The position numbers were made by a program, and so were the translations under genes. A stretch of DNA of 33,143 nt from Bacteroidales bacterium (GTDB lineage Bacteria; Bacteroidota; Bacteroidia; Bacteroidales; UBA1402): contig JAGDCW010000174.1 of assembly GCA_017958305.1 (NCBI GenBank), positions 1 to 33,143 on the forward strand, in the 5' to 3' direction. Each line of letters starts with the position of its first letter. Within the stretch, counting starts at the first letter, position 1. Under the pieces are notes generated by a model, which had not been told where the DNA came from, searched no databases, and saw only the letters and a program-made list of their open reading frames with translations. Below, in pieces: positions 16,027 through 32,472 of this stretch.

Positions 16027-16480
16027 ACGCAACATACTGATCAAGAACAAGAAGGCTTCTTTCGACTATATCCTGCTGGAGACTTACACGGCGGGAATGG
16101 TGCTGACGGGAACCGAGCTGAAATCCATCCGGCTGGGCAAAGCCAGCCTGACGGACAGTTATGTCACGTTCTATGCCGGCGAGCTCTGGGCCAAGGGTAT
16201 CCAGATCTCGGTCTATGAAAACGGCACCTACAACAACCACCATCCCAAGCGCGACCGCAAACTGCTGCTCACGCGTCGGGAACTGCGCAAGATAGAGCGT
16301 CAGACCAAAGAAACCGGTTTTACGATTGTCCCCACCAAGATGTTTATCAACGATAAGGGATGGGTGAAACTGGAAATAGCCGTGGCCAAGGGCAAGAAAG
16401 CCTACGACAAACGTGAAACCCTCAAGGAAAAGGACGACCGTCGCCTGATGGACCGGGCTTTCAAGAGCCGGCTGTCTTAA
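16016..16480 (+). CDS. smpB: SsrA-binding protein SmpB
   Basis: A 154-residue tmRNA partner that brings SsrA RNA into stalled ribosomes for trans-translation. The start is ATG 16016 ([18 protein letters not shown]), inside the end of the YigZ gene; the frame upstream of it is not SmpB-like. The oligonucleotide-binding barrel is evident from [49 protein letters not shown] and the [18 protein letters not shown] helix. The basic C-terminal tail ([10 protein letters not shown]), which reads the empty mRNA channel, is complete. The tmRNA gene itself is not in the window. Confidence 0.97.
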
Positions 16481-16687
16481 TTTTAAGAAGGATATACACT
16501 CGTATTTGCAATTAACGTCGTCCTCGAAAGTATTATGTACTTATTACAGGGGGCATATTAATATTGTCTTAATTTTTTTTTTCTATTGCAAAATAGTCAT
16601 ATATTTTTTTTGTCCGATATATTTTTCTTAGTAGATTTACAGCCGAATAATTAGACGTGTTGTTTTATATATCATGAGGCTTGTTTT

Positions 16688-17221
16688 ATGAAGAACAGAA
16701 GTTTTTTATTCATTGTGGGGTTGTCACTAGTTGTTGGATTTCAATCTGTTTATGCTGAATCCATGTTTGGTAGATTCTTCCCGGAAGAGGGATATGAGGT
16801 CGCTTATCTTATTGAACCTGCATTTGGTCAGCCAGAAGGCTTTTCCATCAGTAAGAATAGTAAGGGATATACGCTAACAGTTAAAACTGTTTCGAATTGG
16901 AAAAAGGTCAATGACGAGGCCGATCGTCTCAGCAAAGAAACTGTCATCAGTATCAAAAGCACTCAATCTCTTAGCGCAGACGAGCAGCAGCGTATCCGCG
17001 AAAACAATAGGCAGGCCTTTAAGAACATCAGTAAAATGATAGTTTCTAAAATAAGAATCGAAGAAAAAGTGGTTTTTATCGGAGAAGAGACTGCACGAAA
17101 GATGATGGAGTTGTTAAAGGCTGAAGCAGAATCATCAGAACAAAATACCAATCGATTGGATGGCAATGTGATCACAATCGCTTATCCGAAAGATGGAGAA
17201 TACTGCAAAATATCATTTTGA
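16688..17221 (+). CDS. Secreted orphan protein in an AT-rich island
   Basis: A 177-residue protein with a signal peptide (MKNRSFLFIVGLSLVVGF ... VYA, cleavage near residue 24). No family is recognised. The mature part has a lysine- and glutamate-rich central helix-forming region (DEQQRIRENNRQAFKNISK) flanked by short beta-like stretches, and a single Cys close to the C-terminus. A GAGG sequence about 9 bases upstream supports the ATG. Base composition is clearly poorer in GC than in smpB before it and the M49 gene after it, and codons ending in A or T are common, which suggests acquisition or relaxed evolution. It stands alone; the facing M49 gene is on the other strand. Confidence 0.72.
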   Translation: MKNRSFLFIVGLSLVVGFQSVYAESMFGRFFPEEGYEVAYLIEPAFGQPEGFSISKNSKGYTLTVKTVSNWKKVNDEADRLSKETVISIKSTQSLSADEQQRIRENNRQAFKNISKMIVSKIRIEEKVVFIGEETARKMMELLKAEAESSEQNTNRLDGNVITIAYPKDGEYCKISF

Positions 17222-17320
17222 GAGTCTTGTGGCAAATAGCTGATACATCGTCAATAGCATAGGTTAGCCAGCGTTTTGTCATCATCGGGTTGTCCTTCAA
17301 ACATTAAAGGACACTGCTCA

Positions 17321-17352
17321 AATAAAAGAGGTCGACCTTTTGGTCGACCTCT
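17321..17352 (-). terminator. Terminator of the slyD-aroC-M49 operon
   Basis: A perfect 11-base-pair stem (17327-17337 with 17342-17352) closed by a TTTT loop. On the minus strand it is followed by TTTTATTT. It lies 22 bases after the M49 peptidase stop. Confidence 0.85.
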
Positions 17353-17374
17353 GTGCTTGATTCAATGCATTTGC

Positions 17375-19387
17375 TTATTCCTGCAGAGCAGGCAGTGTGG
17401 CATACTGCTTGGAATAGCGCAGATGTTGCTCTATGTAGCCTTCGTTGTAGTCTATCTTTACATCCACCAGTTTCTGGCCTTCATAGACGGGCTTGAAGAC
17501 CGGGTTGACAAAGCCCTTGTAGGCGGTCATGTCCAGTTTGGAGTAGCGCTCCAGGATTTCTTTGTGCAGCTCTTGGTCGATGTTGACGGCATAGGTCTCC
17601 ACCAGCAGCTGGGCAGCCTGATAATCGCCTTCCGACTTGCAGCGCTGGATTTCGGCCAGCAACTGGCCAAAGCATTCACGCAGGGCCTTGTAGTCGTGGA
17701 TATACATGTAGGTTTTGCCGTCGCGCTTGCGCAGCTCGGCCACTTTGGGACCGCCGTAGGTCAGCACCCAGTTGGCTACCAGCGCACGGTTGCGCATGTG
17801 GGCTTCTTCGATCTGGTTGCCCAATTCGATGCGGCGCAACTGGGTGAGCGCACCGTTCATCATGTATTCGTAATACTCGGCTTTGTAGGCTTCGTCGTTG
17901 GGCAGGATACCCAGCTCGACCAGTTTCTTGTCGCCCAGGAAGTAGAGGCCGAACAGATCGGCACGGGCTTCCTCCATGGTCGATTGATAGGATTTCATCG
18001 CGTTGGGGTCCACGCCGGGCAGCAACTGGCCGGAGGCATGGCCCAGGCACTCGTGCAGGTCGGTGTGCAGGTTGTCGGTGATGGAACCGTATTTGTTGTA
18101 GAGGGCGATTTCCTTCTTGCTCCACATGAACTCCTCGTTGTAGCCGCTGCCGATGGCTGCTTTGCTATAGGCATCGGTGATGTTCTCGATGGTGACCGAT
18201 TTGGAACCGTAGTCGCGGCGGATCCAGTCGGCATTGGGCAGGTTGATGCCGATGGGCGTGGTGGGGTAGCAGTCGCCGCCCAGCATGGCCACGGTGATGA
18301 CCTTGGCCGAAACGCCTTTCACCTCTTTCTTGCGGAAGCGGGGATCGATCGGGGCGTGGTCTTCAAACCACTGGGCGTTCTCGCTGATGACCTGCGTGCG
18401 GTGCGAAGCGGCCAGGTTCTTGAAGTTGACGGTGCTTTCCCAACTCGACTTGATACCGATGGGATCGCCGTAGTTTTCGATGAATCCGTTGACAAAATCC
18501 ACCTGCGACTGGGTGTCCTGCAGCCAGAGGATGTTGTACTGGTCGAAAGTGCGCAGGTCGCCGCTGCGGTAGTATTCAACCAGCTTGGCGATGGTGGCTG
18601 CCTGGGCCGGGTTCTCGGCCACGGTCTGGGCCCTTTCCAGCCAATAGACGATTTTTTCGATGGCAGGACTGTACATGCCGCCTACTTTCCAGACTTCTTC
18701 CTGGAGCCGGCCGTCCTTCTTGACCAAGCGGCTGTTCAGCCCGTAGGAGATGGGTTGGGGATCGTTGGGATCGGCCATGTCGGCATAGAATTTTTCGGCT
18801 TCTTTCTGGCTGACGTTCAGATAGTAGTTGTTGGCCGAAGTAAGCAGCAGATCTTCACCCTCTTTCTGGTTGACACGCTTGGCGGCCACCTCAGGATTGA
18901 AGATGATGGGCTCGAGGCAGACCAGCAGTTCGTCCGTGGGCAGGTCGAGCTGCTGCTGGGGCGTGGCGGCCAGGGCTTGGGCAAAGAACTCGGCCGAGAA
19001 ACCGGGTGTGAACTTGTCGGTGGCGTAGTGGTGATGGATGCCGTTGGATACCCAGACGCGCTTCAGATAGACGACGAAAGCGTCCCAGTCGTCGCCGCTC
19101 TTTTCGATGTCGGCATATTGGTAGATGGCTTCCAGGGTGTGGCGCACCAGCAGGTTGTAGCGGCAATTCTGGTCGTAGAGGATGTCGCGTCCGTAGAGGG
19201 CGGCCTGGCTCAGGTCGTAGATGAGTTCTTTCTGCCGCAGGGAGAGGTCTTCGAAACCAGGCACCTGGTAGTGCAGGATTTCCATGTCGGCGAAACGGTC
19301 GGCCTTGTAATTAAAGTCGTCTTTTGTGTTGTGCTGGCAAGCGCAGCTAATCAATGCAATCATGCTGAGGTAGAAAAGTTTCTTCAT
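17375..19387 (-). CDS. M49 family dipeptidyl peptidase III-like lipoprotein
   Basis: A 670-residue zinc peptidase. The motif HECLGH (His445-His450) has the HExxGH spacing found in bacterial M49 enzymes such as the Bacteroides thetaiotaomicron enzyme, and EEARAD further on supplies the third zinc ligand (EExxAD). Family members release dipeptides from the N-terminus of short peptides. The start MKKLFYLSMIALISCAC gives a lipoprotein signal with Cys at the cleavage region, so it is probably anchored in an envelope membrane; the longer frame from 19429 would bury that signal. It follows aroC by 41 bases on the same strand and ends at a strong terminator. Automatic annotation sometimes mislabels this family as dihydrofolate reductase; nothing of that fold is visible. 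Confidence 0.92.
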   Translation of the reverse strand: MKKLFYLSMIALISCACQHNTKDDFNYKADRFADMEILHYQVPGFEDLSLRQKELIYDLSQAALYGRDILYDQNCRYNLLVRHTLEAIYQYADIEKSGDDWDAFVVYLKRVWVSNGIHHHYATDKFTPGFSAEFFAQALAATPQQQLDLPTDELLVCLEPIIFNPEVAAKRVNQKEGEDLLLTSANNYYLNVSQKEAEKFYADMADPNDPQPISYGLNSRLVKKDGRLQEEVWKVGGMYSPAIEKIVYWLERAQTVAENPAQAATIAKLVEYYRSGDLRTFDQYNILWLQDTQSQVDFVNGFIENYGDPIGIKSSWESTVNFKNLAASHRTQVISENAQWFEDHAPIDPRFRKKEVKGVSAKVITVAMLGGDCYPTTPIGINLPNADWIRRDYGSKSVTIENITDAYSKAAIGSGYNEEFMWSKKEIALYNKYGSITDNLHTDLHECLGHASGQLLPGVDPNAMKSYQSTMEEARADLFGLYFLGDKKLVELGILPNDEAYKAEYYEYMMNGALTQLRRIELGNQIEEAHMRNRALVANWVLTYGGPKVAELRKRDGKTYMYIHDYKALRECFGQLLAEIQRCKSEGDYQAAQLLVETYAVNIDQELHKEILERYSKLDMTAYKGFVNPVFKPVYEGQKLVDVKIDYNEGYIEQHLRYSKQYATLPALQE

Positions 19388-30556: not shown

Positions 30557-31009
30557 TTATTCCTTGATCAAAATCCACGCATCCGGGAATTTTGATTTCA
30601 AGTTCTTTACCATTTCCTGGGCATCGGGCTTGTTGTTGTAGAAGGCCACGATGACGCGGAACATCAGTTTTTCGTTCTGTGCGAGGACAGTCTGGGGAAA
30701 ACCTTCGTCAATCATTCTCTTCTGAAGGTTCTCGGCGTTGGTCCGGTTGATGAAACTGCCAATGACAACCCCGTAGGTGCCGTTGGCCACACCGGCAATG
30801 ATCTGAATGGATTCGGATGCTTCCTTGACATCACTCTTTTCCACCACTTCGATGGTTTCTTTCTGGGCCGGGGCAGTGGTCTGCTGTGCTTCCTGTTTGG
30901 CTTTGGCACGTTCGTATGCTGCATTGTAGGCTTCTTTGTTGGACTTGCAGCCCACGAAGAGCATCGAACACAGCAACATACCGGCCATCAGCATTTTTGT
31001 AGTCTTCAT
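30557..31009 (-). CDS. SPOR-domain lipoprotein
   Basis: A 150-residue envelope lipoprotein: signal peptide with lipobox FVGC (Cys21), a helical Ala/Lys/Glu/Gln-rich linker (AYNAAYERAKAKQEAQQ), and a C-terminal SPOR domain from about residue 76 (YGVVIGSFINRTNAENLQKR ... FRVIVAFYNNKPDAQEMVKNLKSKFPDAWIL). SPOR domains bind peptidoglycan strands stripped of stem peptides and concentrate at division sites. The protein is short, with no catalytic domain, so a structural or scaffolding role is likely. A full consensus promoter lies just upstream. Confidence 0.92.
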   Translation of the reverse strand: MKTTKMLMAGMLLCSMLFVGCKSNKEAYNAAYERAKAKQEAQQTTAPAQKETIEVVEKSDVKEASESIQIIAGVANGTYGVVIGSFINRTNAENLQKRMIDEGFPQTVLAQNEKLMFRVIVAFYNNKPDAQEMVKNLKSKFPDAWILIKE

Positions 31010-31031: not shown

Positions 31032-31063
31032 CAAAGTTACTACTTACTGCGAGCAAACGCAAA
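31032..31063 (-). promoter_or_regulatory. Consensus promoter of the SPOR lipoprotein gene
   Basis: On the minus strand: TTTG (31060-31063), 20-base spacer, TAACTTTG (31032-31039). It stands 22 bases upstream of ATG 31009. Confidence 0.8.
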
Positions 31064-31093
31064 TTATTTTTTGTACTGAAAGTGGTGATTTTA

Positions 31094-31124
31094 TTTGTAA
31101 GGGCGCTTTTCCTTATTATCTTTG
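31094..31124 (+). promoter_or_regulatory. Consensus promoter of the peptide/propeller unit
   Basis: TTTG (31094-31097), 19-base spacer, TATCTTTG (31117-31124). The start would be near 31130, about 25 bases upstream of the small ORF at 31156 and 138 bases upstream of the propeller gene. It diverges from the SPOR promoter. Confidence 0.8.
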
Positions 31125-31155
31125 CTAATAATTTTTGAAGATACATCCATGGATT

Positions 31156-31302
31156 ATGGTCCACGCTCCTTGTGTGTATTATGTGAAAAACAGTGGACAT
31201 GCTGGTGGAACTTATGAAGTAATGGGTACCCGCATGGAATGTAAGTTCAATCTATTCAATACATGTGATGTGTCTAAACAAACTGTTTGTGTCGAGAACT
31301 AA
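31156..31302 (+). CDS. Small Cys-containing ORF (48 residues), possible remnant peptide gene
   Basis: An uninterrupted frame from ATG 31156 to TAA 31302 encodes 48 residues with four Cys (positions 5, 28, 36 and 45) and a central HAGGTYEVMGTRMECKF. It begins about 25 bases after a consensus transcription start and overlaps the propeller gene start by 35 bases. Cys-bearing small peptides of the NVEALA group often sit beside 6-bladed propeller lipoprotein genes in Bacteroidota. This ORF lacks the NVEALA motif and any signal peptide, and a TAA stands in frame just upstream. It could be the C-terminal remnant of such a peptide, a leader ORF, or chance. Confidence 0.35.
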   Translation: MVHAPCVYYVKNSGHAGGTYEVMGTRMECKFNLFNTCDVSKQTVCVEN

Positions 31303-32455
31303 TATTGGCATGCTGATTTGTTTGGCATGGATAGCAGTTTATTCTTCCTGTTCTAAGAGGAAAAGCTCCATCGATTTGTATTATCAGAAAGATATTATAT
31401 CTGTATGGGATCGGCAGCCAGACGTGATGCTTGATACGACCCAATACTCTTTGGATTTGTTTGCTTTTTTGTCTTTTCCTTCTCAAATCAAGAACCTGAA
31501 ATGCGAGAAGATGGAGTATGTCAATGGCTTTTTTTATCTCTTGGATACAGAGTATAACAAGACGGTTTTTGTATTCGATTCTGATGGTAATTTTGTGTCT
31601 CAACTTGGACGTCGTGGACGAGCCTCTAATGAATATCTTGATAAACCGACAAATTTTTTTGTTCAAGCAAAAGATAGTCAGATAATGGTGTATGAGAGGA
31701 ATGCCCACAGAATCCATTACTATGATAATAAGGGGGGGCAAACAGAACTTCAAGTATTAAAGATTTGGCCGTATGATGCTGGTACTATGTTTGACGGACA
31801 CTTTGTGGCGGCATTTGATTACAAAGAAGCAGGAAGAGGTATGCAATTAGGGGTCTATGACAGCGATGAAAAGCTGGTTACACCAGTTATCGAACTTGGC
31901 GAAAACCACGTGTATGTGGATAACGAACGCTCATTCAAACTGTCAGGAGAGGATCTTTATCATATTCCTCATTTTTCAGATTCTGTTTATGTTTTTCATT
32001 CTGATACACTGAGCAAAATAATACATTTACGGTTCGAGTCTCTTTTTTTGCCATCTGAGATTATCAAAGAAGTCGATAAGGGAGATTTGGAAAAGTACAG
32101 AAGTTTTCGTGGAATTATGTATGTCTCTGACTATTACGAAACAAATGGATACGTGTCTTTTCTGTATTCCAAAAATCATGTGCGAAAGAAATGTATTATA
32201 GACAAAGCAAATAACAATCAGTATCACTTTACAAACGCTCCATTTAAAGGTTTGTTTCCCGGAGACAAATACGCAGTTGATGGGGAATCCATCTATTGGT
32301 TGGTTTGTGAGGATGATGTCGTTGATTTGAATTTTGCACTAGAAAACGAGGTGGTAAAGACAGAGTTGTCGCATACATATTCTCTTATTCGAGACATCAT
32401 TCAAGGGAAATATTCTCTTCCGCTTATAGTAAAAATTAATATTGAGCATCAGTGA
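31268..32455 (+). CDS. 6-bladed beta-propeller lipoprotein (DUF5128/BF3164-like)
   Basis: A 395-residue envelope protein. ATG 31268 (MCLNKLFVSRTNIG) gives a basic N-region, a hydrophobic stretch and a Cys at 28 (VYSSC, an imperfect lipobox); GTG 31265 and ATG 31310 are alternatives. The body carries repeating propeller blades: YVNGFFYLLDTEYNKTVFVFDSDGNFVSQLGRRGRASNEYLDKP is the blade typical of this family, with related blades at IMVYERNAHRIHYYDN and further on. The family is common in Bacteroidota and has no proven activity. Composition is AT-rich, in sharp contrast to pheT, yebC and folC, suggesting transfer. The promoter of folC overlaps its last bases. Confidence 0.85.
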   Translation: MCLNKLFVSRTNIGMLICLAWIAVYSSCSKRKSSIDLYYQKDIISVWDRQPDVMLDTTQYSLDLFAFLSFPSQIKNLKCEKMEYVNGFFYLLDTEYNKTVFVFDSDGNFVSQLGRRGRASNEYLDKPTNFFVQAKDSQIMVYERNAHRIHYYDNKGGQTELQVLKIWPYDAGTMFDGHFVAAFDYKEAGRGMQLGVYDSDEKLVTPVIELGENHVYVDNERSFKLSGEDLYHIPHFSDSVYVFHSDTLSKIIHLRFESLFLPSEIIKEVDKGDLEKYRSFRGIMYVSDYYETNGYVSFLYSKNHVRKKCIIDKANNNQYHFTNAPFKGLFPGDKYAVDGESIYWLVCEDDVVDLNFALENEVVKTELSHTYSLIRDIIQGKYSLPLIVKINIEHQ

Positions 32456-32472
32456 AATTTGGTGTATCTTTG
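32441..32472 (+). promoter_or_regulatory. Promoter of folC
   Basis: ATTG (32441-32444), 20-base spacer, TATCTTTG (32465-32472). The -33 box lies inside the end of the propeller gene, whose stop is at 32453-32455. The start would be near 32477. Confidence 0.7.

Follow-up and report, generated by a model that had tools for sequence, protein, structure and literature searches.

An AT-rich block in a Bacteroidales contig, in which a short reading frame with four Cys codons overlaps the start of a lipoprotein gene, raises the question of whether that frame is what survives of a secreted peptide gene or a stretch of leader that happens to be open. The DNA analyzed, referred to hereafter as the window, is the whole 33,143-nt stretch of contig JAGDCW010000174.1 (GCA_017958305.1, UBA1402 Bacteroidales), and is labelled G000 in the comparisons with other genomes. 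The first-pass annotation had described a GC-poor block with its own consensus promoter, a 48-residue ORF with four Cys residues and a propeller lipoprotein, and had proposed that the ORF could be a diverged or eroded peptide of the NVEALA type. Low GC content was confirmed, as it amounts to 37.2% in the block comprised between nucleotides 31076 and 32455, versus 55.2% in the whole window. As a second AT-rich block is present at about 16250–17500, this low GC content is not unique. The latter block includes, at 16688–17221 of the plus strand, a 177-aa ORF with a signal-like start (MKNRSFLFIVGLSLVVGFQSVYA) and no Pfam match; it is 98% identical in the related genomes G003 and G004 and has no counterpart in the three remaining genomes of the genus, a phyletic pattern that coincides with that of the propeller cassette described below.

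The long gene of the block (31265–32455, plus strand) encodes, as had been claimed, a lipoprotein of the PF17170 (DUF5128) family, with a predicted six-bladed beta-propeller. The profile matches residues 80–324 with an E value of 2.4e-20 and a score of 73.4 bits, the curated cut-off being 22.9; the family is also found in the orthologs from G003 and G004, with which the protein was aligned, and there is one PF17170 match in the genome assembly to which the window belongs. The start codon is uncertain (candidates are 31265, 31268, 31289 and 31310). The N-terminus is lipoprotein-like (...AVYSSC-SK), the n-region, h-region and Cys of the signal having been judged by eye (...SRTNIGMLICLAWIAVYSSC-SK), and the residues SC-S[KR] align in all three orthologs. 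An AlphaFold2 model obtained from these three sequences only was poor (pLDDT 40, pTM 0.27) because the alignment is shallow. Family and signal suggest that the protein would be exported, receive a lipid at the Cys of its signal and thereby be attached to the envelope.

The block also has the promoter-like sequence that had been attributed to it. The consensus of the Bacteroides sigma-ABfr type comprises TTTG near -33 and TAnnTTTG near -7, about 19–20 nt apart (PMC7366714). The sequence TTTG-N19-TATCTTTG, located at 31094–31124 of the plus strand, matches this consensus exactly, with a spacing of 19 nt, and is the predicted promoter from which the propeller gene would be transcribed. A second exact match, TTTG-N20-TAACTTTG, is found on the minus strand at 31032–31063, just upstream of a divergent gene coding for a SPOR-domain lipoprotein, in a region that G003 and G004 have also conserved. 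In total the window contains six exact matches of this kind, versus 0.22 expected from shuffled sequences. A sigma-70 scan of the region was set aside as irrelevant here, and an Rfam search gave one chance sub-threshold miRNA match and nothing else.

The SPOR gene (30557–31009, minus strand; PF05036, E 8.7e-12) is the left edge of an insertion site. On the 3′ side of the propeller gene lies folC, recognized by its Mur ligase middle domain (Pfam), and the arrangement of the SPOR gene beside folC is conserved across the genus and in genus g2. In the more distant relatives G001, G006, G008 and G010 both genes are directly adjacent, with nothing between them, and hence the propeller cassette is an insertion in the subclade formed by G000, G003 and G004. 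When genome contigs were scanned for relatives, only G003 and G004 were found again. At the end of the window folC is cut by the end of the contig (32919–33143). Since nucleotides 3717–3941 of contig G000:C165 repeat 75 folC residues with 100% identity and the frame is open beyond them, both contigs probably join at this gene.

The first-pass annotation had asked whether relatives that retain the propeller gene also conserve the small ORF, and they do not. The ortholog in G004:C1 (MAG RGIG3412, goat reticulum) is 93% identical and occupies the same site, with a leader that lacks the small ORF. The ortholog in G003:C11 (MAG RGIG4402, roe deer omasum) is 60% identical, is located elsewhere and also lacks the small ORF. 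Downstream of this last propeller gene we observed a short lipoprotein-like ORF (L003 1310–1501, minus strand; MNTIRVISLMVLLTVSFVDCTGEQ...). Beyond it the reading continues, within the same frame region, in an ORF at 1102–1305 that has a C-x2-C stretch; together they look like a broken redoxin-like gene of the kind that usually accompanies such propellers.

Alignment with G004 shows that the two parts of the propeller gene have different histories. Over the propeller body (31429–32456, plus strand) only 8 of 1028 bases differ from G004 (L012 3847–4874), all of them at third codon positions, and both proteins are identical there. The propeller gene is real and its body is under purifying selection. 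The flanks are less similar, with 91.5% identity upstream and about 92–93% in folC, which argues that the body was recently exchanged between species, or homogenised. Both sequences come from metagenome assemblies; the presence of two switch points inside one contig makes a simple assembly chimera less likely. The preceding stretch (31076–31428, plus strand), which contains the leader, the small ORF and the first roughly 55 propeller codons, differs between the sister species and gives no BLAST alignment with G004, the heads of the two proteins being still recognisably related. We regard it as very improbable that this stretch was swapped as a unit while the body was kept identical, in which case the variable pair would consist of the head of the receptor and a Cys peptide without leader.

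In G003, the original site retains the upstream region with a -33-like TTTG, followed by 41 bp and then by unrelated sequence up to the folC promoter. The propeller gene is missing there. The 41-bp block is 90% identical to nucleotides 31261–31301 of the window (plus strand) and covers the 3′ end of the small ORF (codons for DVSKQTVCVEN) as well as the opening codons of the propeller (NKLFV-RT). Its retention in G003 shows that this stretch of leader already existed before the two species separated. The block has four differences, of which three are synonymous in the frame of the small ORF and residue-changing in that of the propeller; the fourth converts a Cys into Gly in the small-ORF frame. 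The three synonymous changes hint weakly that the small frame could once have been translated; the block, probably a remnant, differs at too few sites to decide which frame was constrained.

The 48-codon ORF itself is present as described, with four Cys residues, from ATG 31156 to the stop at 31302 (plus strand), and runs over the start of the propeller gene in the +1 frame; as a gene it is no more than putative. Its product is MVHAPCVYYVKNSGHAGGTYEVMGTRMECKFNLFNTCDVSKQTVCVEN, beginning with MVHAPCVYYVKNSGH. The first ATG after the promoter is a different one and opens, in another frame, a 22-codon ORF (MDYGPRSLCVLCEKQWTCWWNL; 31149–31217, plus strand) with no Pfam match. When the 237-nt leader was subjected to 5000 dinucleotide shuffles, an ATG-initiated ORF of at least 48 codons appeared on the plus strand in 6% of them, and composition predicts 3.2 Cys per 48 codons, versus the four found. 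Both features are therefore near chance: the ORF is slightly longer than usual and has about the predicted number of Cys. Codon statistics of the ORF do not depart from those of shuffled sequences (p 0.16–0.20), a test that has no power because known NVEALA peptides do not pass it either.

Similarity searches did not provide the ORF with relatives. Its product matched nothing in Pfam, NCBIfam or PADLOC, and no homologs were found in IMG/VR or in 393 genomes of the order, where the weak hits lie inside or antisense to unrelated genes or are broken by stops. The profile search against NVEALA (PF14055) and related families that had been suggested gave no match, for PF14055 up to an E value of 10. 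In 22 genomes rich in or carrying NVEALA-like peptides, no NVEALA peptide was hit; several of the hits obtained there share one region within ORFs of 360–411 codons, which probably encode a single conserved protein rich in Cys. When the product was compared pairwise with 32 NVEALA peptides, no similarity was significant (best p 0.015 before correction). As the annotation had noted, the ORF has neither an N-terminal signal nor an NVEALA-like junction. In-frame stops lie just upstream and only 80 nt separate the conserved SPOR upstream region from ATG 31156, so that no decayed leader is visible. PF14055 has no match in the window's own genome assembly either; as this assembly is 82% complete, a peptide partner could be missing from it.

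The adjacency of NVEALA-type peptides and propeller lipoproteins to which the annotation referred does hold in related genomes. Among 28 NVEALA-like peptides across the order, 22 have a long same-strand ORF no more than about 210 nt behind them, nearly all of these ORFs with a lipoprotein-type start. Within the same family, the better PF14055 matches are those at loci L043 (G004:C64) and L053 (G006), each immediately 5′ of a long lipoprotein ORF, and at L044, also from G006, immediately 5′ of a PF17170 gene (partner E 1.3e-26). Pfam was run on the two family-level partners of L043 and L044, the former giving a weak TolB_like match below its cut-off; most order-level partners were identified as long ORFs only. 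At L043, the peptide ORF extends into the beginning of the partner gene. Of the propeller relatives at order level, the three analysed best (L084, L085 and L086) are all preceded immediately by a peptide with a signal, and on their 3′ side lies a gene that is redoxin-like or codes for a short lipoprotein (AhpC-TSA, E 5.5e-5 in L085). On contig G004:C64, which includes L014 and L043, several lipoprotein genes follow one another in the company of an NVEALA peptide. The lipoprotein ORF L014 5214–6254 begins with MNKKSLTASAVVCTLGVLSMITLFSC, the same signal as in the NVEALA peptides L042 and L043, and hence peptide and lipoprotein may have been fused or may have a signal in common.

Compared with these loci, the window gene shares with the PF17170 lipoproteins of Bacteroidota the profile match, the lipoprotein-type N-terminus and the AT-rich stand-alone cassette, but lacks a redoxin-like gene 3′ and a recognisable secreted peptide 5′. 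The NVEALA pairs L043, L044 and L053 resemble it in that a short Cys-containing ORF immediately precedes a lipoprotein gene, and at L043 also overlaps the start of that gene; the window ORF differs in that it lacks both signal peptide and NVEALA motif and is not detectably similar. By eye, its tail, C-x7-C-D-V-S-K-Q-T-V-C, bears a suggestive resemblance to C-x6-C-I-V-S-N-Q-D-P-C in the peptide 5′ of the L086 propeller and to C-x6-C-N-I-H-D-Q-E-P-C in L090; in pairwise comparison, the motif C-x-V-S-x-Q-x-x-C that it shares with them is not significant.

How, then, did the small ORF arise? Erosion of an NVEALA-type pair would mean that a formerly secreted peptide lost its signal and NVEALA leader by deletion, and that its mature tail, rich in Cys, persists as a leaderless remnant fused to the promoter. 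This origin would fit the occurrence of true NVEALA peptides in the genus, with L043 arranged as in the window, as well as the likeness of the tail to those of L086 and L090 and a spacing of 22 residues to the first Cys, versus 20–21 in L042 and L043. We consider it unlikely, since against the 32 NVEALA peptides these likenesses are not significant (p 0.20 for the L087/L086 type, 0.07 for L090), neither the profile nor any NVEALA peptide of the 22 genomes matches the ORF, and the 80 nt upstream, with their in-frame stops, hold no trace of a leader. The proposal of a diverged or eroded peptide is not supported by profile, by homologs in the order or by pairwise comparison.

Two further explanations keep the ORF functional in the cytoplasm. 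It could be a leader ORF whose translation, terminating 37 nt past the propeller start, would set the rate of propeller synthesis by coupling. The ORF does begin about 30 nt after the promoter and stops within the propeller start region, but in G004 the same protein is produced although its leader contains no ORF of this kind, the ORF is not conserved and the earlier ATG at 31149 opens another frame, all of which renders a regulatory role quite unlikely. Even less probable, and in our opinion hardly tenable, is a leaderless Cys-containing small protein working in the cytoplasm and encoded in an operon with the propeller. The open frame and the synonymous nature of three of the four differences to the G003 remnant speak for such a protein; it has no relatives, it is missing where the propeller is kept (G004 and G003), and its codon statistics are like those of shuffles, though known peptides are not separated by this test either.

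The explanation that we favor, and hold to be reasonably probable, is that the window carries an orphan propeller lipoprotein on a horizontally moving AT-rich single-gene cassette, and that the 48-codon ORF is most likely a leader opened by chance rather than a surviving peptide gene. The cassette would have moved into the site between the SPOR-domain lipoprotein gene and folC, and the propeller would be the orphan of a module, common in Bacteroidales, composed of secreted peptide, propeller lipoprotein and redoxin-like protein. The propeller may bind a ligand; in intact modules this role would fall to the secreted peptide with Cys residues that is encoded next to it. The small ORF would be a stretch of 5′ leader that overruns the propeller start and lacks a function of its own, or at most a leader ORF affecting initiation. 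What counts against this explanation is that the small ORF, just 5′ of the propeller and overlapping its start, occupies the position of the peptide gene in L043; the incomplete genome, the three synonymous differences in the block shared with G003 and the low pLDDT of the propeller model are further points against it.

Pairs of a secreted peptide and a propeller lipoprotein are common in Bacteroidales. The locus analyzed here would be one such pair that has lost its recognisable peptide; it would have moved between species while the body of the receptor stayed the same, and a sister genome would have deleted it. Rather than evidence for a new class of peptides, it may be taken as a small case study of cassette turnover.
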